From a virus: a stretch of DNA of 39,370 nucleotides. Each line of letters begins with the position of its first letter. Within the stretch, counting starts at the first letter, position 1. The translations under genes and the position numbers were made by a program. The notes beneath the pieces are model-generated. The model did not search any database. It worked only from the letters and a program-made list of their open reading frames with translations, and had not been told where the DNA came from. Below, one piece after another: positions 4,336-37,640 of this stretch. The DNA lies in IMG/VR virus record IMGVR_UViG_3300050821_013520, positions 1 to 39,370 of that record; one strand, written 5' to 3'.

Positions 4336-4338
4336 CGT

Positions 4339-14163: not shown

Positions 14164-14357
14164 ACCCGTTCATGGAGCTGCGCCACGGTCTGATGCGTGC
14201 GGCGAAGGTTCGCCTGATGAGTATGGGCAGGAAGCCTACCAAACAAGCAGCGCGTGCCCTGGTGGATCAGCATTTTTCCAAACTGCGGGCGCGGATCAGG
14301 GAAGAGACGCCCGCTGAAAAGCGGGACGAAAGCGGCGCTTGCACCACGTCTATGTAA
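14160..14357 (+). CDS. Small basic protein, 3' end overlapped by a homing endonuclease gene
   Basis: A 65-residue basic protein starting with GTG (MNPFMELRHGLMRAAKVRLM). The body is helical and Arg/Lys-rich, with no recognised domain. It is coupled to its upstream neighbour by GTGA. The last six codons overlap the TTG start of the GIY-YIG gene, so its C-terminus (ACTTSM) may have been changed when that gene inserted. Its role is unknown. Confidence 0.45.
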   Translation: MNPFMELRHGLMRAAKVRLMSMGRKPTKQAARALVDQHFSKLRARIREETPAEKRDESGACTTSM

Positions 14358-14899
14358 TCAGTAACTCCGGTACGACGAAAAAGTACATCGGAAAGACTTC
14401 AAAGAACCTGGAGCTGTATTTAGGCGAGAATCTGCGCCGTGCTGCAAGAGGCAGCAGAAACAAACCCGCTCTCTTCAACGCCATGCGGAAGTACACCGAG
14501 GGCTGGCAAATCGAGTCCTTATTCGAGTTTGAGGATGAAAAACAGGCTTACAGAATAGAGCGGATGTTGATCGCTTTATTTGACACCAGGAATTGGGGCT
14601 ACAACATTGGCGCGGGCGGTGAGGGCGTCGATATGACGCCCGAAGTTAGGTCAAAGATTGGCGTCGCGTTGCGTGAGCAATATGCCACAGGAAAACGGAA
14701 GTGCCACCTCAAAGGAAGGCCCGCCTGGAATAAAGGAATAAAGACGGGGCCGTTGTCCGTTGAAACAAGACGGAAGATGTCCCGTAAGCATGTGAGTAAC
14801 AAACACAGGCAGAATCTCTCAATCGCCGCGAAAAGGCAGTGGGCCAGTGGTCGGGGATATAGATACAAAGTGGAAGGCAGGCAATATGAAAGCACTTGA
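14339..14899 (+). CDS. GIY-YIG homing endonuclease with NUMOD3-type repeats
   Basis: A 186-residue free-standing homing endonuclease. The catalytic module starts at once: HHVYVISNSGTTKKYIGKTS is the GIY...YIG pair in variant form. A conserved Arg (NLRRAARG) and Glu region (RIERMLIALF) follow. The C-terminal half has NUMOD3-like DNA-binding segments (SKIGVALREQYATGKRK, AWNKGIKTG, RRKMSRKHVSNKHRQNLS). Such genes spread by cutting copies that lack them. The start is TTG at 14339; no AUG fits. Codon use is more AT-rich than the neighbours, consistent with a late insertion. It overlaps the genes on both sides. Confidence 0.85.
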   Translation: MHHVYVISNSGTTKKYIGKTSKNLELYLGENLRRAARGSRNKPALFNAMRKYTEGWQIESLFEFEDEKQAYRIERMLIALFDTRNWGYNIGAGGEGVDMTPEVRSKIGVALREQYATGKRKCHLKGRPAWNKGIKTGPLSVETRRKMSRKHVSNKHRQNLSIAAKRQWASGRGYRYKVEGRQYEST

Positions 14900-15218
14900 C
14901 GGAACAGATTTCGGCAGCGCATCGCTCGCCATGGGCAGGCACAATCGCAAACTGCAGCGCTCGGGCTACAAGGCTCCGGCCAGCAGCTCCTACGGCGACG
15001 ACGGCTCCGAGCAGGATCAGGATCAGCCGCAGCCGATCACCGACAACCAGGATGCGATGGAATGCGTGGACAAGCTTCAGCAGATGGGCTACACCGCCGA
15101 CGATGTCGCACAGGCATTCGAGTCTCTGTCCGGCGAAGATCAGGATACCGATCAGGACGCATCGTCCGGCGCGGCATCCACGCAGGCAGCTCCGCTTCAA
15201 ATTCCCGGCCTCTCGTAA
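14886..15218 (+). CDS. Acidic hypothetical protein upstream of the portal gene
   Basis: A 110-residue protein, basic at the N-terminus (MKALDGTDFGSASLAMGRHN) and very Asp/Gln/Glu-rich later (QDQDQPQPITDNQDAMECVD). A UBA-like helix segment (CVDKLQQMGYTADDVAQAFE) is visible in the middle; this three-helix pattern usually mediates small protein contacts. ATG 14886 has GGAAGG about eight bases upstream and overlaps the end of the homing endonuclease gene by 14 bases. Possibly a minor head or scaffold-related protein; unproven. Confidence 0.5.
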   Translation: MKALDGTDFGSASLAMGRHNRKLQRSGYKAPASSSYGDDGSEQDQDQPQPITDNQDAMECVDKLQQMGYTADDVAQAFESLSGEDQDTDQDASSGAASTQAAPLQIPGLS

Positions 15219-15335
15219 GGCCGCTCTCAAGTTTGGGCTCGATGGTGTTGGCGTCGGTTCCTTCTTCGCATAGAAACCACAACCGCCGCCGCTTGTTCCT
15301 CGGCCCAGAAATTTCTCACTCTCTGGAGTTAGCCA

Positions 15336-15863
15336 ATGTCCAGCATCACCGTTTCCATCCCCGCTAAGTGGCGGGGTAACGCCGCGTTCGACCTCGTCAC
15401 GGTCAATACGCTGAAGGCCGCTGGAGTTCCGGCGGAGTTCATCGATCGCGGTCGCATCGTGCTCTCCGGCGAGGGCTCGCTGACCTCCGCCACCAAAGGC
15501 GACACCACGACTTACACCTTCACGCCGATTCCGCCTCCGGCTCCCACGCCCGATCCTAAGGACGCGACCATCTCTGACCTTCAGTCGAAGGTTGAGGCCG
15601 CTGGCGTGCTCGTCACCCAGCTTCAGTCCCGCGCTACCAGCGCCGAGAATTCGACCGACACCCTCAAGAACCAGGTGACCGCGTCCGAAGCGCAGATCGC
15701 AGAGCTGAAGACGGCCAACGCATCGCTGACCGAAAGCAACACGAAACTGGCCGCGCATGCCGCCGACCTTCAGGCGCAGATCAGCGCCGCCGAGGCTTCG
15801 CTGGCGAAGGCAGCCGCCGCGACCGAGACGCCCACCACCTCCGCGCCGATCCCGACTAACTAA
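15336..15863 (+). CDS. Hypothetical protein with long coiled coil
   Basis: A 175-residue protein. Residues 1-60 form a small alpha/beta region (SSITVSIPAKWRGNAAFDLV). A Pro-rich hinge (PPPAPTPDPKD) follows, then a long heptad coiled coil (from about 80 to 155). TGGAG lies about nine bases before the ATG. Its stop overlaps the portal start by one base (TAATG). It is not recognised; the position immediately before portal suggests a head-assembly accessory protein. The 117 bases before this gene hold no other gene or obvious signal. Confidence 0.5.
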   Translation: MSSITVSIPAKWRGNAAFDLVTVNTLKAAGVPAEFIDRGRIVLSGEGSLTSATKGDTTTYTFTPIPPPAPTPDPKDATISDLQSKVEAAGVLVTQLQSRATSAENSTDTLKNQVTASEAQIAELKTANASLTESNTKLAAHAADLQAQISAAEASLAKAAAATETPTTSAPIPTN

Positions 15864-18376
15864 TGGCCCAGATCGAAGATATCGAGAACCAGGATACCGA
15901 CCTGGTCGATGACGACGCCGAGTCTGAAGTCGTCGCGCGGGAGTACGCGCCCGGCGAATTAGCCCCGTCCATCGTCACGAAGAGCAAGGTCTGGAAACCC
16001 GACGACCTTCGCGACGAAGACATGCTCGACGTCACCACCGCCCTGCTCCGTTCCTGCTTTGAGTCCGATGAGCCGTGCCGCCGCTGGCAGGTGCTGGAGA
16101 CATGGGAACTCCGCATGTCGGATCGCGGTTATCAGCATCTCGAAAGTACTTCGGAGGGCGGATGGCGCGTCCCCGGGTCAGAAGATGAGCACTCGAATGC
16201 ACTGGCGAACATGAACGACGCCGGGGTATTCAGCACACCCATCTTGCCAAGCCAGGGCGATATCGCCATCGGATGCCTCAACCGTGGCGCGATCAAAGTG
16301 AACTTCACACCGAGGCGCAGCAAGCGCCCGCAGGATCGGGCCGCCGCCGAAGCCGCCAATGAGTACAAGTGGCTGTGGCAAAAAGTAAACGCCGATCTGC
16401 AGTTCGACCTGACCTCGATCGGATGGACCGACCCCCGCGTCATCACCTGGACGCGCACGATCGCCGACAAACGTTTCGGCCTTGATGAGGACGGCAATCC
16501 GCTGCAGGCGGAGCTGACGTCCCCGTGGGGCGTCCTCGAATCGCGTGCTCCGATGTTGGCCGGGAGCCTCAAAGAATGCGGATTCATCTCCCTGTTCGAG
16601 TCGCTCGACCACGGCCTCGCCCGCGCGGCGTATCCGTGGATGAACAAAAAGCTGAAGCCGTGCCTCAGCACCTTCGGCAATACAGATTTCGAAGCGATCG
16701 CCCGGATCAATACCCGCGTCGGCGTCGCAAGCCATCTCGCCGCCGGAATCTCCGGCCTGCGTGAAACCGGCATGGGCTACCACTGGATTCGCCCGGGCCT
16801 CTACTTCTCCGATTCTGTGAACGATCTGCAGCGGGAGTTCCTGCTGGAGAATTTTGAGAACGGGATGTTCCTCGTCACCGGCGGCCAGGAAGTTTGCGCC
16901 GTCTGGGAAGAATCGATGGACGACCACCTCGAAATGGGGATGTTCGTTCGCGGACAGGGGCAGAATCGCCGCGCCCTGGGCTCTTCCGATCTGCCGATCC
17001 AAAAGCGAATCAACTTGTGGATGGACCTTCTTGACCGGACTTTCCGCTCGGCGTCGCCGATCACCCTCTTGGAGTCGCAGGCGTTCAACACCGAGGCGGT
17101 CGCTTCGCTGGAAAACACGCCGAACCGTTTCCTCTCGGTTGCGCTCGATACCGCCAGTGGACAAACGATGGAGTCGGTTGTCGGACAGACACCGGTGTCG
17201 GCGGCCCCAGCCGGTCTCATGGAAACCCTGCAGTTTTTCGTGGGTCCGCTTATCCAGTCGATCGATGGTGCGACACCCGCGTTGTTCGGCGGCGGGGAAG
17301 GCACAGATAACACGGTCGGCGCGACGCAGATCAGGTTGCACCAGGCATTAGAGCGCTACGGCACGCCCTGGCAAATGGCGAACAAGGTCATCGCGCGTGC
17401 GTGCTGGCAGGCCGCTAAATGTTGCGGTGACAACCGTGAAGGCAACATCGAGGATTCCGCCGATGGCTACGGAGACGTGATCGTCAATCCCGAGAAGCTG
17501 CGCGGCGGTGAGTTCAACTGCATCGCTGAAACCCTGGGCGCTATCCCCGAAAGCGGTGCGCAGCGCGAAGCGAAGGTCCTTTCCATCCTCGACATGGCGA
17601 ATACCAACCAGCAGGTAGCTTCCATCGTCGCGACGCCGTCGAACGCCCGCGAGATTGTTGCGGCCCTTCACATTGAGGACGTGATCACGGTGGATGAGGC
17701 CGACTCAGAGGACAAACAGATGGAGGAAATCGAAATCCTCCTGAACTCTGAACCCCTGACCAACCCTGCATGGCAGACGTTGTCAGACGAAATCGAAAAA
17801 TTGAACGCCGTGCACGAACAGGCAAAAGCAGCAGCGGCCCAGCTCGTGCAGAACGGCGAAATTCCCGGCCCCGAGCTGATCGAGAAGGGTCAGCAGATGG
17901 AACAAGCGCTGACCGCGCTTCAGCAGCAGCTCGCCAACGTTCCGCAGTACCAGCCGTCTGTGCCGGTCGCTCAGGATGAGAGTGAGGATCACGCCACCGA
18001 AGCCGCGACGTTGTTTTCGTGGATGCAGAAACCGGATGGCCGCGCGATCCGCCGCAGAGCGGCGAAGGAAAAGCCCGGCGGCGACTTAGAAACCTCGCCT
18101 AACTGGGCTAAATTTACAAATTGCTTCCTTCACTGGCAGGGACACACGGCGATGGCCGCGAAGTTTGCGGCGCAGAACGCGCCGCCCGCGCAGCCGAAGG
18201 TCAGTATCTCGATCGATCCCTCGAAATTCCAGGGAGCGGCACAAGTTGAGGCGTTACAGAAAGCCGGGATTCAGGTCTCAGCACCGCCAACCGGCCAGCC
18301 TCACGAAATTGAGCAGGAAACTATTCAGCGTACACCGATGGCCGAGGTGAAAACGCGGGTTAGGCGGCGACTGTAA
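15863..18376 (+). CDS. Portal protein
   Basis: An 837-residue protein, the right size and position for a podovirus-type portal, the twelve-subunit ring through which DNA enters and leaves the capsid. An acidic N-terminus is followed by a globular body. The central region (RINLWMDLLDRTFRSASPIT, then SALFGGGEGTDNTVGATQIR-like) has the loop and stem features of portals. A helical, Gln-rich wing (EQAKAAAAQLVQNGE to about LQQQLANVPQ) and a long C-terminal barrel-like region follow. It begins in a TAATG overlap and is followed without a gap by a small gene. The assignment rests on size, place after terminase and these patterns rather than on a single diagnostic motif. Confidence 0.68.
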   Translation: MAQIEDIENQDTDLVDDDAESEVVAREYAPGELAPSIVTKSKVWKPDDLRDEDMLDVTTALLRSCFESDEPCRRWQVLETWELRMSDRGYQHLESTSEGGWRVPGSEDEHSNALANMNDAGVFSTPILPSQGDIAIGCLNRGAIKVNFTPRRSKRPQDRAAAEAANEYKWLWQKVNADLQFDLTSIGWTDPRVITWTRTIADKRFGLDEDGNPLQAELTSPWGVLESRAPMLAGSLKECGFISLFESLDHGLARAAYPWMNKKLKPCLSTFGNTDFEAIARINTRVGVASHLAAGISGLRETGMGYHWIRPGLYFSDSVNDLQREFLLENFENGMFLVTGGQEVCAVWEESMDDHLEMGMFVRGQGQNRRALGSSDLPIQKRINLWMDLLDRTFRSASPITLLESQAFNTEAVASLENTPNRFLSVALDTASGQTMESVVGQTPVSAAPAGLMETLQFFVGPLIQSIDGATPALFGGGEGTDNTVGATQIRLHQALERYGTPWQMANKVIARACWQAAKCCGDNREGNIEDSADGYGDVIVNPEKLRGGEFNCIAETLGAIPESGAQREAKVLSILDMANTNQQVASIVATPSNAREIVAALHIEDVITVDEADSEDKQMEEIEILLNSEPLTNPAWQTLSDEIEKLNAVHEQAKAAAAQLVQNGEIPGPELIEKGQQMEQALTALQQQLANVPQYQPSVPVAQDESEDHATEAATLFSWMQKPDGRAIRRRAAKEKPGGDLETSPNWAKFTNCFLHWQGHTAMAAKFAAQNAPPAQPKVSISIDPSKFQGAAQVEALQKAGIQVSAPPTGQPHEIEQETIQRTPMAEVKTRVRRRL

Positions 18377-18580
18377 ATGGCACGACTGAAAGCAGAAGAA
18401 CGGAAGCGCCTGCGCAGCAGCACTTTCGCGCTCCCAGGCAAGCGGGAGTTCCCGCTGGAGGATCGTGAACACGGCGAGAAGGCGCTACAGCTTCTGCCGA
18501 ACTCACACACGACCTCCGCAGAGAAGAAGCGCGTCCGCGCTGCGGTGCACCGGAACTTTCCCTCGATCGGATCGAAGTAA
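18377..18580 (+). CDS. Small conserved phage protein (FALPGKREFPL type)
   Basis: A 67-residue basic protein with the pattern STFALPGKREFPLEDREHGE, then ALQLL, then SAEKKRVRAAVHRNFPSIG. This short conserved domain (ALPG-x-R-x-[YF]-P-x-x-D, ending in VRxAVHRxFPSIG) is common beside portal or scaffold genes in phages of many hosts. Its role is not established. The ATG follows the portal stop immediately, with no gap. Confidence in a real gene is high; the function is unknown. Confidence 0.65.
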   Translation: MARLKAEERKRLRSSTFALPGKREFPLEDREHGEKALQLLPNSHTTSAEKKRVRAAVHRNFPSIGSK

Positions 18581-18583
18581 CCA

Positions 18584-19207
18584 GTGGCGAAGGCACATCT
18601 GGTTGGCTTCATCGCCAGGCATGGTGAAACCGCTGCAAATGCAGAGGACCGTTTTCGCGGCTGGCTGGACATCCCGCTCAACGATAAGGGCGTAAAGCAG
18701 GCGCACCAGGCGGCGGAGTTCCTGAAGGGCTATCCCATCAGGAACGTGATCTGCTCACCGCTGCTGAGGGCGTTTGTAACTGCGGATGTTATCGCCGCGC
18801 CGCGTAAGTTGCAGGTGGGACAACACCGAGGATTATTTCCCCTCGATGTCGGCGTCTTCAGCGGTTTGTCGAAGCCTGACAACCAGGCGGCGCTGCGGTT
18901 GTTCGTGAAGTCGCCCGACGTGGTGATCCCCGGCGGTGAGTCACTCGCCGATTTCGAAGAGCGCCAGTTCGCCTTCTGGGACACGGCTCTGAAGCTGGCA
19001 CGCGTGGCGGGCCTGACACTATTCGTCGCCCACACCAGCAACGTCATCGCCCTGCAGAACCTCACCGAGGACGGTGAGGCGATGGAGCCCGAAGACGGCG
19101 ATACGGTGAAGCCGGGCGGGATTGCAGCGATCTATTGGGACGGGCAGAAGCATCACGTCGAGCCGGTGTTCGGCCAGGCCGAGGCCGCACGTTTTGGGGG
19201 TTCATAA
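18584..19207 (+). CDS. Histidine phosphatase superfamily protein
   Basis: A 207-residue member of the histidine phosphatase (phosphoglycerate-mutase-like) superfamily. The catalytic RHGE is at residues 12-15 (IARHGETAANAEDRFRGWLD). SPLLRA(xxT) gives the second arginine motif, GGESLADFEER the conserved Glu region, and VAHTSNVIAL the second histidine. It would remove phosphate from an unknown substrate through a phospho-histidine. Start is GTG 18584, three bases after the previous stop. A metabolic-type phosphatase between portal and scaffold is unusual; it may act on a metabolite or a phosphoprotein during infection. Confidence 0.85.
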   Translation: MAKAHLVGFIARHGETAANAEDRFRGWLDIPLNDKGVKQAHQAAEFLKGYPIRNVICSPLLRAFVTADVIAAPRKLQVGQHRGLFPLDVGVFSGLSKPDNQAALRLFVKSPDVVIPGGESLADFEERQFAFWDTALKLARVAGLTLFVAHTSNVIALQNLTEDGEAMEPEDGDTVKPGGIAAIYWDGQKHHVEPVFGQAEAARFGGS

Positions 19208-19221
19208 CTCAGGAGACCGTC

Positions 19222-19377
19222 ATGCATTACCTGAAGTCCACGCCCTTTACCATCCCGGCTAACAACGGGAAGATCGCCCAGCTCGACTGGGATCGGGCTT
19301 TCTTAAGCCCCGAAGAATTTCGCCGGAAATACGGCGCAGAACCAACAGAACCAGGAGACCAGACCAATGGCCGCTAG
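19222..19377 (+). CDS. 51-residue hypothetical protein before the scaffold gene
   Basis: A small protein (MHYLKSTPFTIPANNGKIAQ, then LDWDRAFLSPEEFRRKYGAE) with no recognised domain. ATG 19222 is set by the CAGGAGACCGTC leader. The last 11 bases overlap the start of the scaffold-like gene, and the AGGAGACCAGACC leader of that gene lies inside this coding sequence. Position and coupling argue for a real gene; a role in capsid assembly is possible. Confidence 0.55.
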   Translation: MHYLKSTPFTIPANNGKIAQLDWDRAFLSPEEFRRKYGAEPTEPGDQTNGR

Positions 19378-20671
19378 TGTGCTTGATTTTTCCTCCCTCG
19401 ATACCACCACGGACGACGTCACCGACCAGTCCACTGACACCGACGTCGTCGATACCGACACCGATCACGATGCTGGCGGTGATGGCTCCGCCGATGCCGG
19501 TGATGGTGGCGGTGATGGGGCCGAAGCCGACGCTGGCGGCGAAGAAAAGCTCGATGGCCGCAAAGGCCCGCAGGCGATCCGCAATGCGGTGAAGGCGGCA
19601 TCCGACGCCGTTCCCGAACAGGCTGCCCGCCTGAAGGAAATGGCGAACGGCTACTTCCGCGAACAGGCGTACAAGGCGACTTTCGCCACACCGCAGGAAG
19701 CCGCTTCCGCGAAGCAGCTTATTGAGTCGGTCGGCGGCGTGGAAGGGATCGCGAAATTCCAGGAGCGCGATCAGATTTATCAGGCCCAGGACGCCATGTT
19801 CGAGGAGGGTAATCCCGAGGTCCTCGACGACTTCTTTGAGGATTTCCCGGATGGCGCTGTGGCACTGGCTCCGGCCTATCTGGATCGGCTGGCGAAGGTG
19901 AACCCAGAGGCATTGTCGGCAGCGGTGATGCCGCACGTCGTCGGCGTCCTGCAGGGAATCGGTTTCGACAGCTTCCTGCGCACCATGCACGCAGAGTCGG
20001 ACCCCGCGAAGTTCAAGGGACTGGTGGAACAGCTCTACAACTGGTTTGCGGGCGAGCATAAGAAGGCGGGCCAGCTCCGTCAGCCCGCTGCGAAGAATCC
20101 TGGCACCGATCGCATCAAGCAACAGCAGACCAAGCTGGATCAGGAACGCGAACAGCTCTTCAGCGATGGGGTCACGGCGAAGGTGCGGACCTCTACCGGC
20201 GCGGAGATGAGCAGTGTCGTCGATCAGCAGGCGAAGCGCTACGGATGGAACGACAAGCAGAAGGCCCATTACCAGAAGACGCTCGGACAGCGGGTTGTCG
20301 ATGCGCTGAACGCGGATGAGACCTATAAGAGCCAGCTCAAGATCAAGCAGAGCAGCAAGGCCCGCACCCACGACACGGTCGCGAATCATATCTCCGGAGC
20401 CTTCAACGAAAAGCTGAAGGACATGGCTTTCGACGTCGCCACCGAAATCTACGGAGCACCAAAGGGCGGCAAGGGTAAGCCCGGCGGCAAGCCCACCACC
20501 GGCGTGGTGAAACCCGGAACGCCGAAGACCGCGCCCGGCGGCGGCCCGATCCTCGTCAGCGCACAGCCGTCGCGTGAACAGGTTGACTGGCGGAAGCCGA
20601 ACGCTGAAGAGCTGTGGATCATGAACCAGGCCTGGCTGAAGAGCGGGCGGTTCGTCACCTGGAAGGACTAA
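19367..20671 (+). CDS. Probable capsid scaffolding protein
   Basis: A 434-residue protein with a highly acidic, Asp/Thr/Gly-rich N-terminus (about residues 8-60). A helical, Gln/Lys/Ala-rich body follows, then a Gly/Lys/Pro-rich linker (KGGKGKPGGKPTTGVVKPG) and a short basic C-terminus ending WLKSGRFVTWKD. The place between portal and major capsid, the helical composition and a charged C-terminus are typical of scaffolding proteins that guide capsid assembly and are then removed. AGGAGACCAGACCA precedes the ATG. No protease motif is seen. Moderate confidence, from context and composition. Confidence 0.55.
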   Translation: MAASVLDFSSLDTTTDDVTDQSTDTDVVDTDTDHDAGGDGSADAGDGGGDGAEADAGGEEKLDGRKGPQAIRNAVKAASDAVPEQAARLKEMANGYFREQAYKATFATPQEAASAKQLIESVGGVEGIAKFQERDQIYQAQDAMFEEGNPEVLDDFFEDFPDGAVALAPAYLDRLAKVNPEALSAAVMPHVVGVLQGIGFDSFLRTMHAESDPAKFKGLVEQLYNWFAGEHKKAGQLRQPAAKNPGTDRIKQQQTKLDQEREQLFSDGVTAKVRTSTGAEMSSVVDQQAKRYGWNDKQKAHYQKTLGQRVVDALNADETYKSQLKIKQSSKARTHDTVANHISGAFNEKLKDMAFDVATEIYGAPKGGKGKPGGKPTTGVVKPGTPKTAPGGGPILVSAQPSREQVDWRKPNAEELWIMNQAWLKSGRFVTWKD

Positions 20672-20701
20672 CCAGGCCCCTCACAAATTATTTTGCGACT
20701 T

Positions 20702-20736
20702 AGTCGGCGAGATGGCTTTCCATCTTGTCTACGCCT
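20702..20736 (+). promoter_or_regulatory. Conserved 35-bp element, copy C
   Basis: AGTCGGCG at 20702-20709, 17 bases, then GTCTACGCCT at 20727-20736. It lies 30 bases after the scaffold stop, behind AT-rich DNA (AAATTATTTT). The middle is a perfect hairpin, AGATGG-CTTT-CCATCT, filling 16 of the 17 spacer bases. It sits before a homing endonuclease gene and, further on, the major capsid gene. Confidence 0.62.
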
Positions 20737-20796
20737 ACAGAAGAAGAGTTTGCGGAAGTAATTAAGATCAGCCGGGCTTATTCGGTATTAACCTTC

Positions 20797-21315
20797 ATGG
20801 CGCAGCCCGGTTACATCTACCTCATCGGCTCCACTCGGTTCGGCTGGTACAAGATCGGACGATCGCGGAAGCCGGACATCAGGATTAAGGACCTCGGCAT
20901 TTTGTTGCCGTTCAAGGTCGAGGCATTTGCCGTCTGGAAGACGACCAACGCTGAACTGACTGAAAAGCTGTTTCATAAGAAACACTCCGCGCAGAACATT
21001 AACGGCGAGTGGTTCAGCTTCGGGACGGCGCAGGTCGCCGGAATCATTCATGGGGACGCGCCGTACGATGCCCTGCGAGTTTATCCGGGGCAGGCCCGCG
21101 TGTTCTGTGGGTTTCAGAACGTCGTAAAAGATCGCGTGGTTAACCACAAGTCGCGCTCTGAAGTCGCGCACAGGAAAGAGAACGGTCGTGCTTTTAGCGA
21201 CGCAATGAACGATTACTTGCGAGAGCACAACCTGGAGCAGACCCCGAAGAATAGAACACTGGCACGGGAAGCCATCAAGTCTGCCTACCAACATTTAGAG
21301 TTCGTCGCGCACTAG
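20797..21315 (+). CDS. T5orf172 (GIY-YIG superfamily) endonuclease-like protein
   Basis: About 172 residues. The N-terminal domain is T5orf172, a GIY-YIG relative: PGYIYLIGSTRFGWYKIGRS, then DLGILLPFKVEAF, and a conserved Glu/His helix (ELTEKLFHKKHSAQNINGEW). The C-terminal half is basic and likely binds DNA (VVNHKSRSEVAHRKENGRAF). It is probably a homing or self-spreading nuclease. The start is uncertain: ATG 20797 is given, but TTG 20725 is in frame and would run through copy C of the conserved element. It lies between scaffold and major capsid genes. Confidence 0.75.
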   Translation: MAQPGYIYLIGSTRFGWYKIGRSRKPDIRIKDLGILLPFKVEAFAVWKTTNAELTEKLFHKKHSAQNINGEWFSFGTAQVAGIIHGDAPYDALRVYPGQARVFCGFQNVVKDRVVNHKSRSEVAHRKENGRAFSDAMNDYLREHNLEQTPKNRTLAREAIKSAYQHLEFVAH

Positions 21316-21425
21316 ACGGTAAATGGTGCCCTCTGTGATCGGTTATCACTGGCCGTCGCGCACCAGACACAAATGTGTGCCCGTTCAGCTTTCGAGCTGA
21401 GAACCTCTGATCGGTCAATTCACTG
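21303..21425. repeat. Imperfect tandem duplication after the T5orf172 gene
   Basis: CGTCGCGCACTAGAC at 21303 recurs as CGTCGCGCACCAGAC at 21354, both continuing to ...GTGCCC. CTCTGTGATCGGT..CACTG at 21331-21351 recurs at 21405-21425 in similar form. The second unit has an extra hairpin between the two parts (21383-21404: CAGCT-TTCG-AGCTG with flanking GTT/AAC). The first unit includes the gene's stop codon. This looks like a duplication linked to insertion of the endonuclease gene. Confidence 0.55.
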
Positions 21426-21456
21426 TTGCTCCGAAACCAGACCAGACAATGACCAG

Positions 21457-21515
21457 CCCCGATAACTCGGGGAAATAACCCATCAAGCGCGACACCACCC
21501 GTGTGTCCAGCGCTT
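21457..21515 (+). promoter_or_regulatory. Two hairpins in the major capsid leader
   Basis: CCCCGA-TAAC-TCGGGG (21457-21472) is a perfect six-pair hairpin. AAGCGCGACAC (21485-21495) pairs with GTGTC (21503-21507) and, after a two-base bulge, GCGCTT (21510-21515). The second ends one base before GGAG, the capsid ribosome site. They may stabilise the abundant capsid mRNA or control its translation. Confidence 0.5.
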
Positions 21516-21528
21516 CGGAGAGTCATTC

Positions 21529-22842
21529 ATGATCGGCACAGAAGCAGCGTTCCAGAATATTGAGCTGGAACAGTTCAACAAGAAAATTCCTGACCTCATT
21601 TATCAGGGCAAGACGCTTTACTCCCTGATGAAGGATCGTTTCCCCAAGGTCCCGCAGTCCAACATCACCGAGGGCGGCTCGACGCAGCGCGCCTCCATGC
21701 GTGTTCCGTTCCGCGTGCAGGGTGGCCCGGCCATCTCGCAGGGCACCGGCAACGGCGACAGCATGGGCAGCGGCAACGCCTCGGTCTATCAGTCTTTCGT
21801 GGGCAGCCCGGTGTACAACTACGCCGTTCAGCAGCTCACCGAGCTGTCGGAACTCGCCACGAAGGGTAAGGATCGCAGCACGATCGGCTCCCTGAAGGCG
21901 AAGGAGCTGAAGAACTCGCTCGACAGCGCCCTCAACGGTTTCGAAGCCCTCCTTTATGGCGATGGCTCCGGAGCCCTGGCACAAATCCCGTCCACCGCGA
22001 CGATTTCATCTGGCAGCGGCAGCGGCAACGAAACCAGCTTCATCACCGGTCTGCTCGCTACCATCTGCACAGACAACCAGGTTCTGCAGTTTTTCCCGGC
22101 TGAGGGCGGAAGCTCTCGCGGATCGGCAACGGTCTCCGTGAACGATCCCGTCACCGGCACCATCTGGTTCAGCACTGATCTGCCTTCGGGCACCGCAGTC
22201 GGCGATTACATCGTCGTCAATGGTTCCTCGGGCGCAATCGGCTCCGGCATCCTCGGCACCACGAGCTGGATCAACTCATCCACCTCTGGCACCCAGGCCG
22301 GTTACAACCGCGCTCTGTATCCGTCGCGTACCAGCTCGCCGAGCATCAACCTGAACGGCGGCGCTGTCACGGCGTCCCTGTCGGCCCGCATTGAGCGTCT
22401 GCTCGGTCAGGCGATGGGCGGCGACAACAAGACGAAAGACTCGGGCATTTATCTGTTCGGAGATGATCAGGCGGAGGCCGTGGCAACCACCACGTACTAC
22501 CAGCAGCGCATCACCCAGCAGAGCGATCGCGCGTCGAACAACGAAGTTCCCGACACGAGCCGGAAGTACTTCGCGGGCACTTTCGGACAGCGCGAAGTCA
22601 ACATCAGCTACAACCAGCCGCGTGGCCGCATCGACATGCTGTTGACCGATTCATGGCTCCTTGGGGTGCTCGTCGATTGGTCGCTTTACGACTATACGGG
22701 CGAAGGAAATTTTTCCATGCCTGTGCCGGATGGGTCCGGAAATTGGACCACGGCCCGTCAGAGCTGCTACCGCAGCGCCCTGCAGGTCTTCTGCTCCGCG
22801 CCGCGTCATCAGCTCTTCGTCGAGAACGCAGCCCAGCCGTGA
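21529..22842 (+). CDS. Major capsid protein
   Basis: A 437-residue protein with the look of an HK97-fold shell protein: a helical N-arm (EAAFQNIELEQFNKKIPDLI), a long Gly/Ser-rich surface-loop region (roughly 70-95 and 145-250), a spine-helix candidate (DSALNGFEALLYGDG), and beta-rich segments toward the C-terminus. It lies after scaffold and is followed by a strong terminator-like hairpin, as expected for the most highly expressed structural gene. GGAG lies eight bases before the ATG. The hairpin-rich leader is described separately. Assignment is by gene order, size and composition; no single diagnostic motif proves it. Confidence 0.65.
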   Translation: MIGTEAAFQNIELEQFNKKIPDLIYQGKTLYSLMKDRFPKVPQSNITEGGSTQRASMRVPFRVQGGPAISQGTGNGDSMGSGNASVYQSFVGSPVYNYAVQQLTELSELATKGKDRSTIGSLKAKELKNSLDSALNGFEALLYGDGSGALAQIPSTATISSGSGSGNETSFITGLLATICTDNQVLQFFPAEGGSSRGSATVSVNDPVTGTIWFSTDLPSGTAVGDYIVVNGSSGAIGSGILGTTSWINSSTSGTQAGYNRALYPSRTSSPSINLNGGAVTASLSARIERLLGQAMGGDNKTKDSGIYLFGDDQAEAVATTTYYQQRITQQSDRASNNEVPDTSRKYFAGTFGQREVNISYNQPRGRIDMLLTDSWLLGVLVDWSLYDYTGEGNFSMPVPDGSGNWTTARQSCYRSALQVFCSAPRHQLFVENAAQP

Positions 22843-30632: not shown

Positions 30633-32623
30633 TGGGACAGCTTAGCGGCGGTCGCGAGTTATCGACGGTAGAGCAGAAGCAGCCCTTCCTGGGTTCGCTC
30701 CTGCGCCGGATCATCACCGCCGTCAACAACGCCGCGTCGAATGCGGCCTCGGTCGCCAGCAACGCAATCACCAGCCTGGGCGGCGATGTCACGACGGCGG
30801 GAGCGGGTGCGGCGACTGCAACCGTCACCGGCGTCAACCAGGCAACGGTTCCGGTCTCCGCTCAGGTGGTTGGAACGAACGCAAAAGGTCAGCTTGTCGC
30901 GACAAGCGTCAGCGAACCGCTGAACACGCCCGTCGTCTCGCATGAGTGGCTCGACTCGTATGACGCCACCTCGGGAGAATTCGGGCAGACCCAGCCTGCG
31001 TTCACCGATATCTCCGGCACTGCGACGCCCGCACAACTGCCGGTTGCCACCGGAACGACTCTGGGGATTGTGAAGCCTGATGGCACCACGATCACGATCA
31101 CCAGCGGAGTCATCACGTCGGTCAGCAGTGGCGGCGGGGGAACCGTGCTCTTTGGCTCCGGACCGCCTTCTTCCGGGCCGGAGGTGGTGCAGTCAACATC
31201 GGCAGGAGGCTACAGCCTCCCCTTCGCATTGCCGGTCACGTCGGGCAATCTGCTCCTGGTCGCCTATAAGAGCGAGAGCGCGATCACCGGTGTGACTATC
31301 TCGGACACCCTGGGAACGCCATACACGCTGGTCGCTTCGATTTCCGGCCAGCCGAACAACATGAATATTTACGCCGGAATCGCTCCGGCGAGTGGCGCGA
31401 ACACGGTCACGATCGGTGGAGCACCCAACAACTTCGACCGCCTCGCTCTGATGGAGGCCTTCGGCGTCGGTGCCACGGTAGACGCCACAGCCAACTCTTA
31501 CAACGGGAGCAGCCCTTATAGCCTGCCGATCACGACGACGAACGCGACGGACTTCATTTTTGCCGCAGTCGCCGGATATCACAACGTCAACGTGTTCACG
31601 TTCTCAGCGCCGTTCACCCTGAATTCACAAAGCAACGGAGCGGACGCCAACGCGATCGGACATTACATTACCAGCGCCGCTGGCACCTTCACTCTGACGG
31701 TGACGCTGACGGCGGGCGCGGCGGATAATCAGCCCGCAATCCTGGTCGCATTCAAGACCGCAGTGACGCCACCGGCACAAGGTACCTTCTACTTCGATAC
31801 TTCGACCACTCCTTACACGGGCTACGTGTTCAATTTTGGCTGGGAGTTACAGGGCGGAAGTGGCCCCACACTTCAGACCGACGGTACAAACAACGCATCG
31901 CAAACGTTGCTGAACCTCATTGCTGGTTCGAACGTCACCCTCACCAATAGCGGAGGGGGCGTGACCATTGCAGCCAGCGGGGGAGGCGGAGGAGGTGGCT
32001 TTGGCGCAGGCGAAGCGACATTGACCGCTCCGCTATTGTCAGCCTTTACGCAAGACAACTTCAGCGGCAGTACTTCAGCCACAACGATCACGCCGGGTGG
32101 CACGACGGCAATCTTGCTGACCGATCCGGGCCTGGGTGGGAACACCAACCAGCTTCGCAGCTTGCTGCAGACGATCCCGACGCCGACTAGTCCTTGGACG
32201 CTGACAGCACGATTGCGTTTCAACTCTATCCTCGTCGTGTATTACTCGTTTGGCTTGGTGTTGAAGGATGGAACATCCGGCAAGTACATGCTTTTCGGGT
32301 GGGGCAGTGACTCATCCATCGTTCAAGAGACAGATTGGAATAATGCGAATTCATTTGCAACCGACTTCAACCTCATCCATCCCATCTTGTTTCAACCGGA
32401 TGGGTGGTGGCAGTGGCAATACGACGGCACAGACCTGAATTACAGGTATTCCCGAGACGGCAACTACTTTGTGACGTTGTACAAACCAGCATTTGGGAGC
32501 ATCTACCTTCCCAACGCTCCGAGTGAGGCGGGCTTTGGGATGAACGTCAACAACGCCGACACCGGCCCTCCGCTCAATGCTGCCGCAATGGAGTGCTTCA
32601 GTTTCACGCTCACCCAACCATGA
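30632..32623 (+). CDS. Tail fibre or host-range protein
   Basis: A 663-residue protein coupled to the preceding tail gene by a one-base overlap. The N-terminal 60 residues are helical and Ala-rich (LLRRIITAVNNAASNAASVA) and could attach to the tail. A first beta-rich region follows, then a compact Thr/Ser/Asn domain (about 190-385). A glycine run (SGGGGGGGFG, near 455) acts as a flexible hinge before a C-terminal lectin-like domain with many Trp/Tyr/Asp residues. This modular design fits a receptor-binding fibre. It overlaps the next gene by four bases (ATGA). Confidence 0.55.
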   Translation: MGQLSGGRELSTVEQKQPFLGSLLRRIITAVNNAASNAASVASNAITSLGGDVTTAGAGAATATVTGVNQATVPVSAQVVGTNAKGQLVATSVSEPLNTPVVSHEWLDSYDATSGEFGQTQPAFTDISGTATPAQLPVATGTTLGIVKPDGTTITITSGVITSVSSGGGGTVLFGSGPPSSGPEVVQSTSAGGYSLPFALPVTSGNLLLVAYKSESAITGVTISDTLGTPYTLVASISGQPNNMNIYAGIAPASGANTVTIGGAPNNFDRLALMEAFGVGATVDATANSYNGSSPYSLPITTTNATDFIFAAVAGYHNVNVFTFSAPFTLNSQSNGADANAIGHYITSAAGTFTLTVTLTAGAADNQPAILVAFKTAVTPPAQGTFYFDTSTTPYTGYVFNFGWELQGGSGPTLQTDGTNNASQTLLNLIAGSNVTLTNSGGGVTIAASGGGGGGGFGAGEATLTAPLLSAFTQDNFSGSTSATTITPGGTTAILLTDPGLGGNTNQLRSLLQTIPTPTSPWTLTARLRFNSILVVYYSFGLVLKDGTSGKYMLFGWGSDSSIVQETDWNNANSFATDFNLIHPILFQPDGWWQWQYDGTDLNYRYSRDGNYFVTLYKPAFGSIYLPNAPSEAGFGMNVNNADTGPPLNAAAMECFSFTLTQP

Positions 32624-33045
32624 CAGTTATAGACGTCGGACCCGAACAGCACGCGGAGGTTGAGGCCATCCACTCCGACATGGGCATGGACTATAAGTGC
32701 CCCGATCTGACCTCGCCGCTCCTGATCGTGAAAAAGGCGGTCACCAACGACAAGGGTGAAGTTATCGGAGCGTGTCTGCTCCGACTTACCGCCGAGACGA
32801 TCCTGCTCCTTTCTCCGGAGCTGGACCCGAAGCAAAAGATGGACGCGATGGAAGAGATGCAGCCCGAGGTTCTTCAGGCGGCATGGCAGTTAGGTCTCGA
32901 CGATGTCGAGGCGCGGATTCCGACCGATACAGAACACATTTTTGAGAAGAGGCTAAACCAGCTCGGATGGTCACGCGACCGTGACGGCTGGCACCCGTGG
33001 TCTAGGTCAACGGAAGGATCGTATGGAACAGATTCAAGCAAATAA
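32620..33045 (+). CDS. GNAT-like phage protein
   Basis: A 141-residue protein with an acetyltransferase-like alpha/beta pattern: MTVIDVGPEQHAEVEAIHSD, then TSPLLIVKKAVTNDKGEVIG, ACLLRLTAETILLL and a C-terminal helix-strand (RLNQLGWSRDRDGWHPWSR). Many phages encode a protein of this type beside tail genes. The acetyl-CoA loop is not clear, so it may be a degenerate GNAT fold with a structural role. It starts in an ATGA overlap and overlaps the HNH gene by 23 bases. Confidence in the fold is moderate; activity is unproven. Confidence 0.5.
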   Translation: MTVIDVGPEQHAEVEAIHSDMGMDYKCPDLTSPLLIVKKAVTNDKGEVIGACLLRLTAETILLLSPELDPKQKMDAMEEMQPEVLQAAWQLGLDDVEARIPTDTEHIFEKRLNQLGWSRDRDGWHPWSRSTEGSYGTDSSK

Positions 33046-33553
33046 TGACTCAAAACTGATCCCTTTGTCTCGGGGGCTCTTCGCCCTCGTTGACGCTGAG
33101 GATTTTCAGCGGCTGTCCCGTCACAAGTGGCACGCGAACCCCAGTTCGACGGGTGATTTCTATGCACGCACCACCGTCTACAACGATGACGGATCGAGGG
33201 TACAGCTCTATATGCACCGGGAGGTGATGGGCATTTCCTCCGGCGACTGCCGCGAAGTCGATCACCGGAACCCTTCGGAGACGCTGGATAACCGGAAGTC
33301 GAATCTGCGGATCGCCTCCAACCTTGAAAACAGTCGCAATTGCCGTAGTAAGCGGCGCAGGAAGCCCGGCGGCGAGAATCTGCCAAAAGGAGCGTATTTC
33401 GCGACAGATAAGAACAAATGGACCGCGCAAGTGCGGACAGGCGGTCGTGTGGTCCAGTGTGGATACTTTTCGACGCCGGAAGAGGCTGGAAGTGCGTACG
33501 CAGAAACGGTCCGAGCACACCATGGCGAATTTGCCTGCACGAGGAATGTCTAA
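33023..33553 (+). CDS. HNH homing endonuclease with AP2 DNA-binding domain
   Basis: A 176-residue nuclease. The HNH core is LYMHREVMGISSGDCREVDH, then NPSETLDNRKSNLRIASNLE, with the conserved V-D-H and N-x-x-x-N-L-R. The C-terminal AP2-type domain reads KWTAQVRTGGRVVQCGYFST, then EEAGSAYAETVRAHHGEFA, and gives DNA recognition. HNH-AP2 proteins are a known free-standing homing endonuclease class. GGAAGGA before ATG 33023 sets the start. The stop overlaps the next ATG (TAATG), and the start lies inside the GNAT-like gene, so it fits seamlessly between two tail-region genes. Confidence 0.9.
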   Translation: MEQIQANNDSKLIPLSRGLFALVDAEDFQRLSRHKWHANPSSTGDFYARTTVYNDDGSRVQLYMHREVMGISSGDCREVDHRNPSETLDNRKSNLRIASNLENSRNCRSKRRRKPGGENLPKGAYFATDKNKWTAQVRTGGRVVQCGYFSTPEEAGSAYAETVRAHHGEFACTRNV

Positions 33554-34134
33554 TGCGTAGCGCAGTAAATCAAGCAGGTAACGCGGCGACGACGGCGGGC
33601 AACACCGCCGCCGGATACGGAGCCGGAGCCAGCACCATCGGCTCTGCTGTCGTCCCGTTTGAAACTCGACAGCTCACGAACCCATCAGGGATGTCGCAGC
33701 AGGACATCGCCTCGCAACTCACCGCCGGTCTGGCGGGTGCGGGTGGCGCGACCTCTGGGCTCACCGGCGCGGCGAGTAAAAACGCGGCCACCACACGCAA
33801 CCCGGTCGGCTTCAGCGCCGCGCTCGACTCAGCGGCTCGGTCACGCGATAAGGCCGCCGCGAGCACCAGCGAAGGCATCACGGCCAAGAATGCTGACGTG
33901 AAGCTCCAGCAACAGGACCAAGCTGGCGACATCCTGGGCAAGATGTACGGCACTGATGTCAGTGGTCAGAACGCGGCATCGGGTCAGATCGCACCCGACA
34001 TCAACGCTCAGGTCAACGCGTCGAATTCCGGTTGGCTTCAGAACCTCTTGAAGATCGGTCAGACCATTGGCGGCGCGGCGGGCGGCGCGGGCCAGCTTAT
34101 GACCGGACTCGCGAATCAGGGGATCAGCGTCTAA
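33553..34134 (+). CDS. Ala/Gly-rich hypothetical virion protein, likely internal or ejection protein
   Basis: A 193-residue protein dominated by Ala, Gly, Thr and Ser (MRSAVNQAGNAATTAGNTAA). It has a helical Gln/Asp segment in the middle (DVKLQQQDQAGDILGKMYG) and a hydrophobic Gly/Ala C-terminus (LLKIGQTIGGAAGGAGQLMT). Small residues with membrane-active helices are typical of podovirus internal virion proteins that form a channel during DNA ejection. Both ends overlap neighbours by one base (TAATG). Not assigned to a family; the role is inferred. Confidence 0.5.
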   Translation: MRSAVNQAGNAATTAGNTAAGYGAGASTIGSAVVPFETRQLTNPSGMSQQDIASQLTAGLAGAGGATSGLTGAASKNAATTRNPVGFSAALDSAARSRDKAAASTSEGITAKNADVKLQQQDQAGDILGKMYGTDVSGQNAASGQIAPDINAQVNASNSGWLQNLLKIGQTIGGAAGGAGQLMTGLANQGISV

Positions 34135-35600
34135 TGAGTCTCACTTCACTAATTCCGAATTTGATGGGCGATCAGCTCGATCCGAAAGCGGCAGCGCTCC
34201 TGCCGCGCCTCGGACCCTTGCCGAGTCTCTCAACCCAGGAACCGCAGCTCCACGAGACGATCCCGGCGCTGAAGCCGATGGCCGCACCGTCTGCGGCGCT
34301 GGCTCCTCTCCCTTCATTCGCCGACGCGCCGTCGCCGGACGTGTCTGGCATGGCGGGCGGCGCTTCTCTTCCGCCACTCACGCCCACGCTGCACCCACTG
34401 GTGACCAACGGAAGCCCACGCGGTCTCCAGGAGCAGCACCTCGAAGACATTATCGGGAAGCATGATGCTCCCGATCCCGCGAAGCCTGGATTCTGGCACG
34501 GGCTCGCACACATTGCGGCGAAGGTCGGCAACATTGCGGGCGACGTGTTTGCTCCATCGACGATGGCGATGATCCCTGGCACCGATCTGAACAAACAGGT
34601 CCAGTACGCAGGCGCTGTGCGCCAGCTCGCTGGTCTGCAGAAGCAGGACACGGACGAGCAGAATGCGGCGTCACAGCGCAATCTCCAGGGTGCGGAAGCG
34701 GCGAAGGCGGAGGCCGAGGCGAACAGTGAGCCGCAGGAAAGCGCGGCGGATATTGCCCTGAAGAATGCCCAGGCATATCGCGCCATCCATCCCCTCGCTA
34801 CTTCCGCCTTCGACCTCTGGCACCAGCAAAATCCGACCGGCACGGCTCAGGATTACGAGACGCTGATGCAGAAGCCACTCTCGCAGCAGCAGGCCGATTC
34901 GATGAATGCTGTCTGGGACAAGATGGCATCGAAGTACGGTTTGCCGACCGGACAGTTCAAGGCCGGAATGCCCGCGACCGACGCCAACGCGCTCTCTGCC
35001 TCGCTCAACAACGTTGTCTCGCGAGGACAGGGCGCACAGAGCATCACCATTAAGCAGCAGCAGGCCGCTGAGAAAGTTCCCATGTTGCAGCCGGACGGCA
35101 AGGGCGGTTACACGCTCACTTACGTGCAGCCCGGACAGACGATTGCACCCGGGTCGGCAACGCCAACCCAGGTCGGCGGCGCAAACGAAAAAGAGGCGGG
35201 GGCGTTGCAGGATGCCAAAGCCTCGATTGATTACGCGAACACTTATGTACAGGGAGGAAAGTACACCGGCGCTGGAGACGAGGCGCTGCTGGAAAAGTAT
35301 TTCGACCTGGCGAAACCCTCGTCAGGATTCCGCATGACGCAGCAGCAAATTGAACTCCTGCAAAATTCACGCAGTTGGATGGAGAGCGCGAAAGGGCAGG
35401 CTTACCACGCCTCCACCGGCACCTGGTTCAGCCCACAGCAGCGCCAGCAGATTGCCGAGACGATGAACACGCTCTATCAGGCGAAGGCCGGGGTGTCCGG
35501 CCCGTCAGACATCGTTTACGACGACAAGGGCGTGGAGCATCGCTACAAGGGCACCGGAAGTCGCTCCGACCCGAACAACTATGAGGTGGTGAAGAAATGA
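34134..35600 (+). CDS. Hypothetical virion protein, likely internal or ejection protein
   Basis: A 488-residue protein, Pro-rich in the first 130 residues, then helical. A segment with many Gln/Glu/Ala residues (QKQDTDEQNAASQRNLQGAE) and a strongly helical C-terminus with several tyrosines are visible. No transmembrane helix is obvious. It begins in a TAATG overlap and ends in an ATGA overlap. With the genes on either side it forms a run like the internal-protein cassette of podoviruses. Function is inferred only. Confidence 0.5.
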   Translation: MSLTSLIPNLMGDQLDPKAAALLPRLGPLPSLSTQEPQLHETIPALKPMAAPSAALAPLPSFADAPSPDVSGMAGGASLPPLTPTLHPLVTNGSPRGLQEQHLEDIIGKHDAPDPAKPGFWHGLAHIAAKVGNIAGDVFAPSTMAMIPGTDLNKQVQYAGAVRQLAGLQKQDTDEQNAASQRNLQGAEAAKAEAEANSEPQESAADIALKNAQAYRAIHPLATSAFDLWHQQNPTGTAQDYETLMQKPLSQQQADSMNAVWDKMASKYGLPTGQFKAGMPATDANALSASLNNVVSRGQGAQSITIKQQQAAEKVPMLQPDGKGGYTLTYVQPGQTIAPGSATPTQVGGANEKEAGALQDAKASIDYANTYVQGGKYTGAGDEALLEKYFDLAKPSSGFRMTQQQIELLQNSRSWMESAKGQAYHASTGTWFSPQQRQQIAETMNTLYQAKAGVSGPSDIVYDDKGVEHRYKGTGSRSDPNNYEVVKK

Positions 35601-36871
35601 GCACGCCAGCGCAGATTCCCGCAGGATGGAGCACTCTTCCTCCTGGCTGGAGTGCAAGCAAGCCGGGGGGCGCAGCACTCACATCTCCCGATCAGGAGAA
35701 CGGATTTCAACGTGAGGTGGATGATCTGACGAAGATCGAACCATTCAACGCCCGCCCGGGGATCGGCGGCCATCTTCTGACGGCTGCAGGCAACATTGGA
35801 GGCGGAGTCCTGTCTCCGCTCGGATTGCTTGCGCACCCCGAACAAACGCTGAAGTCGTTAGTGAACACGGTCAGCAACCAGTACGGAGTGGGTGGTCCTT
35901 TTGCTGACGTGCCTTCAATGCAGGAGGGGATCGCTCGTACCGCAGTCGAAAATCCAGCCGGTCTCGCCGAAAACGTCGCCGGGGGACTGCTCGGCGGAGA
36001 AGCGACCGGAGGCTTGCTGGATGCCGCAAGGCCAATGCTGCGCCCGCTGGGCGAGGGGTTGCAGAATGCGGGCGGAAAGCTGATCGATCGCACAGCCGGA
36101 TCGTTGCAAAAGGATTTCGCGCACGGTGCGGAGCCTGGAAAGAGTTATCTCGCGGGTGGTGGAAAACCAGCGCTCAGCATGAAGTCGCTCTCCTCAAAAG
36201 CGGCGAAAGTAGCAAGCGACGCAGGACAGAAGCTCGGCGAGGTTTACAACGCCGGAGATGCAGCCGGTACAGTCATTCCGGCGACTGACGCCTTCGATGC
36301 TGTGGCGGAGCCAGCTCACGATCTGCGCGTCCAGTCGGAGGGCTTCGGCGGCACCGGCGCTCCGGACACACTGAACGCCTATGAGGACCGCGTCCTGCCG
36401 TCTCTCGCGAGCGCATATTCACGCGGTGGATATAAGCCCACTGAACTGTGGAGTGACGCGAAGAACCTCGGCGCGAACACGCGCTGGAACGATCCGACGA
36501 TGTACGACCTGAATGCGGTGCGCCAGGAGACGCGGGGAAGGCTCGGCGGACTGCTTTCGGATGCCGTGCCGGATGCAAGGCCGCTCAACAAAATCTACCA
36601 GGGCTCCAGCAATCTGGCGGAACGCGCTGGACTCCGCGCACAGACGGGTTCCATGCCGCTGACAAAGCTCGGCAGGATCGGTGCTGAGGCGGCCATTGGT
36701 CACGCAACCGGCGCTTCGCTGTTGCCGCTCATTGAGTCCGTGCCAGTGGCCAGCACCGGCGCTTATGGCCTCTACCACATTCCTGACGCCGCCAGCCTTG
36801 GTCTCAAGGCGTTACCGGCTCTTTTCCCAGCCGGTTCCGCCGCCAGCGCGGATCGCGATCAGGATCAGTAA
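35597..36871 (+). CDS. Hypothetical virion protein, likely internal or ejection protein
   Basis: A 424-residue protein. The N-terminal 160 residues are Gly/Leu/Pro-rich and partly hydrophobic (GVLSPLGLLAHPEQTLKSLV, GGLLGGEATGGLL). The middle is helical and charged (SSKAAKVASDAGQKLGEVYN). The C-terminus is again hydrophobic (LLPLIESVPVASTGAYGLYH), ending in an acidic DRDQDQ tail. It starts by an ATGA overlap. Composition suits a membrane-interacting ejection protein. The 70 bases after it are AT-rich, contain a GAACC...GGTTC inverted repeat and lead into a homing endonuclease gene. Confidence 0.5.
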   Translation: MSTPAQIPAGWSTLPPGWSASKPGGAALTSPDQENGFQREVDDLTKIEPFNARPGIGGHLLTAAGNIGGGVLSPLGLLAHPEQTLKSLVNTVSNQYGVGGPFADVPSMQEGIARTAVENPAGLAENVAGGLLGGEATGGLLDAARPMLRPLGEGLQNAGGKLIDRTAGSLQKDFAHGAEPGKSYLAGGGKPALSMKSLSSKAAKVASDAGQKLGEVYNAGDAAGTVIPATDAFDAVAEPAHDLRVQSEGFGGTGAPDTLNAYEDRVLPSLASAYSRGGYKPTELWSDAKNLGANTRWNDPTMYDLNAVRQETRGRLGGLLSDAVPDARPLNKIYQGSSNLAERAGLRAQTGSMPLTKLGRIGAEAAIGHATGASLLPLIESVPVASTGAYGLYHIPDAASLGLKALPALFPAGSAASADRDQDQ

Positions 36872-36941
36872 TAACTCGACTTTCCGAACCATTTTTCAAG
36901 GGTTATTTAGGTTCTGGTGCACGCCACAGGTATTAGCTTTT

Positions 36942-37640
36942 GTGGCCTTCACTCTTTACTGCATTCAGAACCGGATCAACGGGAAGCTCTATATCGGCAA
37001 GACGGTTCGTCCGATTGCGAAGCGGTGGAAACACCACCTTTCGGATCATCTTCGCGTCGATACACGTCTTTATCGGGCAATGCGCAAGTATGGTCCGGAT
37101 AACTTTCGGGTTATCGTCCTTTCTGACTTCGACGTCGATCACGACTCGCTGCTACGCCGGGAAATCGCATATATCCGGCTCTTCGGGACGACCGACCCGA
37201 AGTTAGGGTACAACTCGCACCCCGGTGGCGCTGGCACTTCGCATCACGCAACGCCGCAAGAGACCCGCGACAAAATTAGTCGCGCACATCGCGGAAAAAG
37301 GCGCTCATCCGATGCGAAGCAAAAGATGAGTCTGGCGGCGAAGGAGCAGCGACGGACGCTTACAGATCCGCAGAAAGCAGTCCTGCACAGGATGACCTCG
37401 GTAAATACCGGCAGGATTCGCAGCGCGGAACATAGGCGCAACAACGGGCTTGCTCGACGCGGCAAGGGGAAATGTTACTCGTTCAATCGCGTCCACCAAA
37501 AATGGCAAGTTCGTGTGACCGTCGATGGGAAGGTCAGACAGCTCGGCTTATACCAAACCGAGCAAGAAGCAAGATTAGCCGCTGAGGCGGCAAAGAAGGA
37601 GTATTACCATGCCTCTCTACACCACTCTTACACCGGGTGA
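36942..37640 (+). CDS. GIY-YIG homing endonuclease with NUMOD3 and AP2-like domain
   Basis: About 232 residues. The GIY-YIG module is LYCIQNRINGKLYIGKTV, followed by KRWKHHLSDHLRVDTRLYRA and a catalytic Glu region (LLRREIAYIRLF). NUMOD3-like segments follow (DKISRAHRGKRRSSDAKQKM, SLAAKEQRR, RIRSAEHRRNN). The C-terminus is an AP2-like domain (KWQVRVTVDGKVRQLGLYQT, EQEARLAAEA) similar in layout to that of the HNH enzyme. GTG 36942 is the nearest start before the GIY motif. The 3' end overlaps the next structural gene by 32 bases and carries that gene's AAGGAG ribosome site. Confidence 0.85.
   Translation: MAFTLYCIQNRINGKLYIGKTVRPIAKRWKHHLSDHLRVDTRLYRAMRKYGPDNFRVIVLSDFDVDHDSLLRREIAYIRLFGTTDPKLGYNSHPGGAGTSHHATPQETRDKISRAHRGKRRSSDAKQKMSLAAKEQRRTLTDPQKAVLHRMTSVNTGRIRSAEHRRNNGLARRGKGKCYSFNRVHQKWQVRVTVDGKVRQLGLYQTEQEARLAAEAAKKEYYHASLHHSYTG

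Follow-up and report, generated by a model that had tools for sequence, protein, structure and literature searches.

Phages are well known to carry free-standing homing endonuclease genes (PMC2988022; PMC10448857), the products of which can cleave DNA hundreds to thousands of bases away (PMC2988022). The described systems closest to those considered here are the Seg-type GIY-YIG enzymes of T4-like phages, the T5orf172 genes of ICP1 and other phages, and the HNH-AP2 genes of certain Bacillus phages. In this work, we analyzed a 39,370-base contig, an IMG/VR virus record, hereinafter referred to in its entirety as the window. Its left end is host DNA, which is followed by a tyrosine integrase gene recognized with Pfam:

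4..450, plus strand: 3′ end of a host ABC transporter gene, host flank (Pfam ABC_tran)
454..909, minus strand: host fliS, host flank (Pfam FliS, 3.4e-24)
1001..2296, plus strand: tyrosine integrase (Pfam PF00589, 36 bits)

As the host fliS and ABC transporter genes adjoin the integrase, the window is an integrated prophage of a temperate, podovirus-like and unclassified lineage, residing in a soil-type bacterium. The integrase was not found in most close relatives. One relative of the terminase (33%) comes from a Bryobacterales assembly, and an acidobacterial host would be consistent with that match, which falls short of proof. A DNA-level search of named phages gave no match to the window, nor did a tblastn search of named phages with its portal, and scans of IMG/VR with the major capsid protein (MCP) and tail genes recovered no relatives. 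Terminase-based scans returned many IMG/VR relatives with identities of up to 55%. The contigs of 33 relatives were fetched and every gene of the window was mapped on them by synteny and tblastn; their MCPs are about 22–64% identical to that of the window, a distance too great for co-conversion tracts or an exact target to be read. The late genes run in the order terminase, portal, histidine phosphatase, scaffold, MCP and tail-tube-like genes. The phosphatase gene (18584–19207, between portal and scaffold) is kept in most close relatives, and a serine recombinase (11044–11748) lies between the small and large terminase genes. At 8987–10136, ParB-like and N6/N4 DNA methylase parts occupy two overlapping frames; the copy in the window looks frameshifted, since in G025 both matches share one frame.

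Some relatives have interrupted terminases. Group I introns were considered as the cause, but Rfam found none and the interruptions are inteins. Three relatives carry one at a common terminase site (L052 3440–4348, L056 7154–8062 and L059 11462–12394), each enclosing, in a different reading frame, a gene for an HNH/zinc-ribbon endonuclease of 195–205 aa. The intein frame is open throughout in all three and is stop-free in 3%, 0.4% and 9.6% of synonymous shuffles of the HNH gene. At this terminase site, L067 has a mini-intein without a nuclease (5320–5706). In a phage methylase insertion that lacks intein splicing domains, a comparable hidden HNH gene is known (PMC11855218).

Four nuclease genes and their junctions

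Four intact nuclease ORFs are found among the virion genes, as a sequence-only reading of this DNA had claimed:

14339..14899, plus strand: HEG1, GIY-YIG nuclease-like gene of 186 aa with a TTG start and a NUMOD3-like tail (Pfam, PHROG, active-site alignment)
20797..21315, plus strand: HEG2, T5orf172/MUG113 GIY-YIG-type nuclease of 172 aa (Pfam, alignment, model)
33023..33553, plus strand: HEG3, HNH-AP2 nuclease of 176 aa from the likely start, the ATG at 33023 (PHROG 99)
36942..37640, plus strand: HEG4, GIY-YIG nuclease with an AP2-like tail and a likely start at 36942 (TIGR01453, alignment to I-TevI structures)

That reading counted three families; however, T5orf172 is a subfamily of GIY-YIG (PMC10448857), and hence there are two nuclease superfamilies, with three genes of the GIY-YIG type and one of the HNH type. 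The GIY-YIG label holds for HEG1 (Pfam 29.1 bits against a cut-off of 22.6, 1.3e-6; PHROG homing endonuclease 1.3e-20) and for HEG4 (31.2 bits; TIGR01453 71.5 bits, 9.5e-20, above its cut-off; PHROG homing endonuclease 9.5e-36), as does the T5orf172 label for HEG2, where MUG113 (44.6 bits) and T5orf172 (36.3 bits) both exceed their cut-offs. The accessory labels fared less well: NUMOD3 in HEG1 (15.6 bits against 20.4) and AP2 in HEG3 and HEG4 fall below the Pfam cut-offs, and HEG4 yielded no NUMOD3 match. The tail of HEG4 is matched at residues 172–231 by PHROG 99 (1.3e-10). HEG3, in which the Pfam HNH_3 profile also stays below its cut-off, matches the PHROG 99 HNH endonucleases (6.7e-27), shows an HNH motif followed by an AP2 domain and has homologues in 465 phage records. 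Recognizable catalytic residues are kept in HEG2, HEG3 and HEG4; in HEG4, alignment to I-TevI and homologues recovers all six (Tyr, Tyr, Arg, His, Glu and Asn). The four genes are ORFs of their own outside any intron or intein, an Rfam search of the window found no intron, and they are sporadic, with their sites closed in relatives. By these features of sequence and context they fit a known kind, that of free-standing homing endonucleases, of which they would be new members.

The genes flanking HEG1, HEG3 and HEG4 are the following:

13867..14163, plus strand: g13783, conserved small gene left of the HEG1 junction (tblastn, 24 relatives among the matches listed)
14160..14357, plus strand: small gene left of HEG1, its 3′ end cut short at HEG1 (homologues in G001 and G002)
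14886..15218, plus strand: g14886, conserved small gene right of HEG1 (comparison with relatives)
32593..33045, plus strand: g32593, conserved gene of 150 aa left of HEG3 (comparison with relatives)
33553..34134, plus strand: g33551, conserved virion-region gene right of HEG3, with a TAATG overlap (comparison with relatives)
35597..36871, plus strand: g35597, gene left of HEG4 (mapping on relatives)
37609..38382, plus strand: g37609, conserved gene right of HEG4, its start and Shine-Dalgarno inside HEG4 (mapping on relatives)

All four genes had been placed at gene boundaries, overlapping their neighbors or sharing their translation signals, and this is borne out for three of them. HEG1 overlaps the 14160–14357 gene by 19 bp and g14886 by 14 bp, the first 14 bases of the latter also closing the HEG1 frame; HEG3 overlaps g32593 by 23 bp and has the TAATG in common with the next gene; HEG4 overlaps its downstream neighbor by 32 bp and contains that gene's AAGGAG and ATG. 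HEG2 differs in having non-coding DNA on both sides, about 125 bp before and 213 bp after it.

Comparison of the HEG1, HEG3 and HEG4 junctions with relatives lacking these genes, as the earlier reading had proposed, found them closed in about 40 relatives, with the flanking genes overlapping or near-touching. The g13783/g14886 spacing is −65 to +82 bp in 25 contigs without a nuclease gene there as compared to 722 bp in the window, the g32593/g33551 spacing −26 to +180 bp in 15 such contigs as compared to 507 bp, and the g35597/g37609 spacing 32 bp in G019 and G005 as compared to 737 bp, with some of these contigs coming from the same virus population and thus not being independent. The 722 bp at HEG1 include the 14160–14357 gene, which G001 and G002 also have, leaving about 550 bp for the insert; in those two relatives the homologue of this gene continues until it overlaps the next gene. 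Near this junction, L002 carries another insertion, a DNA methyltransferase gene (6621–7202) flanked by the g14886 homologue and the portal, a position at which the window has none.

Filled versions of the same junctions also occur. Other GIY-YIG genes sit between g13783 and g14886 in G013 and L061, and G011 has an HNH-AP2 gene at the HEG3 junction that is 38% identical to HEG3. Further GIY-YIG genes are found between portal and phosphatase (G033), between tailA and tailB (G016) and before tailA (G039). Over the Pfam cut-offs, 4 of 39 viral relatives have GIY-YIG, 3 of 39 MUG113 and 7 of 39 HNH_3. The sporadic presence, closed junctions and different nucleases at the same places are the reverse of a fixed presence in all relatives with no sign of gain or loss, and they indicate that the four genes are independently gained or lost. 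That they were instead ancestral and lost from the relatives without them, with shared positions reflecting vertical descent as opposed to re-insertion, would accord with the use of the same junctions by several lineages and with the homology of HEG3 to the G011 gene, but is very improbable. One junction often holds different nucleases: HEG1 has little similarity to the L061 gene and no tblastn match to the G013 gene, which HEG4, from another junction, matches at 35%. Furthermore, the tree of HEG2 conflicts with the phage groups, and the window and G030 are closer in HEG2 (37% identity) than in MCP (25%).

Loss of two active-site residues in HEG1

In the GIY-YIG enzyme I-BmoI, the R27A and E74A substitutions yield catalytic mutants, and the listed active-site residues include R27 and H31 (PMC3161791). 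Alignment of HEG1 with I-TevI and ten comparable homologues places a tyrosine (Y27) at the catalytic Arg27 and an asparagine (N31) at His31, two substitutions that rest on one contig. The arginine is kept in I-TevI and 10 of the 10 homologues and the histidine in all but one. HEG1 retains the equivalents of Tyr6, Tyr17, Glu75 and Asn90 and thus lacks two of the six active-site residues; a loss of Glu75, also considered, was ruled out by the homologue alignment, with substitutions only at Arg27 and His31. A single-sequence fold of HEG1 gave no usable model (pLDDT 39.8). With the catalytic Arg and His replaced, HEG1 is probably a GIY-YIG family protein unable to cut and, as it stands, is unlikely to target a neighboring structural gene, as had been suggested for each of the four nucleases.

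The simplest reading is that HEG1 is probably a decaying copy, with the decay following fixation. We consider it unlikely that, once catalysis was lost, it was domesticated to regulate the packaging/portal operon by binding DNA. I-TevI does also act as a repressor (PMC10448857), and the 186-codon frame of HEG1 is still open, with E74 and N89 kept, despite the loss of Arg27 and His31; yet an open frame is equally expected shortly after inactivation, and the presence of the HEG1 gene in no relative leaves no measure of selection.

HEG2 at the scaffold/capsid junction

HEG2 lies in the following setting:

19367..20671, plus strand: scaffold-like gene left of HEG2 (synteny, tblastn with relatives, position before MCP)
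21425..21528, plus strand: major-capsid leader between HEG2 and MCP, with a possible, weakly indicated RNA fold
21529..22842, plus strand: major capsid protein gene, MCP (synteny in the scaffold/MCP order, tblastn to relatives)

Alignment with homologues places its likely start at 20797, within a longer ORF that begins at 20725. Tyr, Arg, His and Glu are invariant across the 21 sequences of the alignment with 20 homologues, and the predicted model (pLDDT 83.6) matches T5orf172/GIY-YIG models in Foldseek at 1e-5, though it has no fold match in the PDB; profile and fold thus agree on T5orf172/MUG113 membership. The subfamily is short (about 145–250 aa) and, unlike the well-studied homing enzymes, has no recognized DNA-binding domain.

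The leader fold could pair the Shine-Dalgarno (CTCCGA..TCGGAG in the window, TTCTCC..GGAGAA in several relatives), and might possibly exert translational control; it has no Rfam match, and a consensus fold on the plain alignment is without covariation. In the scaffold/MCP gap of G017 (oriented contig 3946–4350), a small ORF has the motif LKSGRFITW, resembling the LKSGRFVTW of the scaffold C-terminus, and perhaps encodes a second capsid-binding peptide. No tRNA genes were found in this gap in the relatives.

A scan with HEG2 returned 54 loci, from a query alignment drawn from genes at the scaffold/MCP slot, an ascertainment to be borne in mind. All HEG2-type genes of the window's phage family lie between scaffold and MCP, in 10 lineages (the window, L178, L180–L183, L185, L189, L194 and L190, the last from the scaffold side only; in L180 the preceding gene is without a sequence match to scaffold). 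Five P22-like lineages, as defined by matches to P22_portal, the PHROG scaffold and P22_CoatProtein, have the type in the same slot (L186, L195, L201, L202 and, from the scaffold side only, L192). Profile comparison with hhalign of the MCP, scaffold and portal of the two groups found no similarity (probability below 1%). The HEG2 tree unites L190 and L194 of the window's family with the P22-like genes (98/92), and the seven loci of a third, sister group C precede an unrelated zinc-ribbon gene. The distance from HEG2 to the MCP start is 105–226 bp in 13 of the 13 loci measured. This recurrence at the scaffold/capsid junction is the unusual part of the set.

On the MCP tree, the presence of HEG2 in 9 positive rows entails 8 changes, as compared to 8.1 with shuffled labels, and supported branches force at least 7. 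Between G012 and G016, which have close MCPs and of which only the latter has HEG2, the scaffold/MCP region differs by an indel that leaves the scaffold end and the MCP leader intact. Vertical inheritance of HEG2 is rejected by the conflict of its tree with the phage groups and by the scatter on the MCP tree. Tree conflict, random-like scatter and indel together point to a gene that has repeatedly been transferred horizontally into a single slot, also where the flanking genes are unrelated.

Since the same place is reached without detectable similarity of capsid, scaffold or portal, we tentatively raise the less-than-likely prospect that insertion at this junction is independent of the local sequence, with a general feature of the junction (e.g., the capsid leader) being targeted or a capsid-linked role being involved. 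Still more doubtful is that HEG2 is not, or is no longer, a homing gene, having become a capsid-linked accessory nuclease that stays beside the capsid gene through the need to be made with the late virion proteins, and that is exchanged between phages as a useful cassette. The sharing of close HEG2 proteins in one slot by 10 family and 5 non-homologous P22-like lineages would agree with such a role, as would the steady spacing before the MCP start. Conversely, the scatter on the MCP tree equals that of random labels, unlike that of a gene under steady selection, group C stands before an unrelated gene, and the T5orf172 family is otherwise tied to homing (PMC10448857).

Proposed route of entry and comparison with known systems

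We consider it very likely that four free-standing homing endonuclease genes entered the virion module of this prophage independently, each at a gene junction and with no essential gene broken. From the sequences, we infer cutting, target and homing as follows: a phage bearing such a gene would cut a relative free of it in a shared cell, and repair would then copy the gene across with flanking DNA, by the route established for such genes. The four would be at different stages, HEG2, HEG3 and HEG4 having their catalytic residues and HEG1 decaying, and the HEG2 subfamily would repeatedly arrive between the scaffold and capsid genes, upstream of the capsid leader. Mixed infection, which had been invoked as frequent in this lineage, is a plausible meeting place; as the window is an integrated prophage, superinfection of lysogens would be an equally good one and may be what is meant.

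With the same junctions found both closed and filled within one phage family, homing, target choice and decay of endonuclease genes become directly testable. That the HEG2 subfamily prefers the scaffold/capsid junction even in unrelated phages prompts one to ask what determines the settling sites of such genes, and warns that position by itself does not prove that the adjoining gene holds a DNA target.

Among known systems, the Seg-type free-standing GIY-YIG enzymes of T4-like phages (PMC2988022) share the location at junctions and the sporadic presence among relatives, and HEG4 matches both I-TevI structures and TIGR01453. In contrast to them, the genes described here belong to a prophage of an unclassified podovirus-like lineage and include one, HEG1, without two catalytic residues. 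HEG2 resembles the T5orf172 genes at phage exchange boundaries in ICP1 and others (PMC10448857) in its domain, sporadic occurrence and position at a boundary between conserved genes, but represents a distinct short subfamily without a recognized DNA-binding domain, located between scaffold and MCP in two unrelated capsid lineages. Finally, HEG3 has the domain order, HNH then AP2, of the genes annotated as HNH-AP2 homing endonucleases in Bacillus phages Slash and Staley; it is 32–37% identical to its best phage matches over most of its length, and differs from the Slash and Staley genes in host lineage and insertion site.
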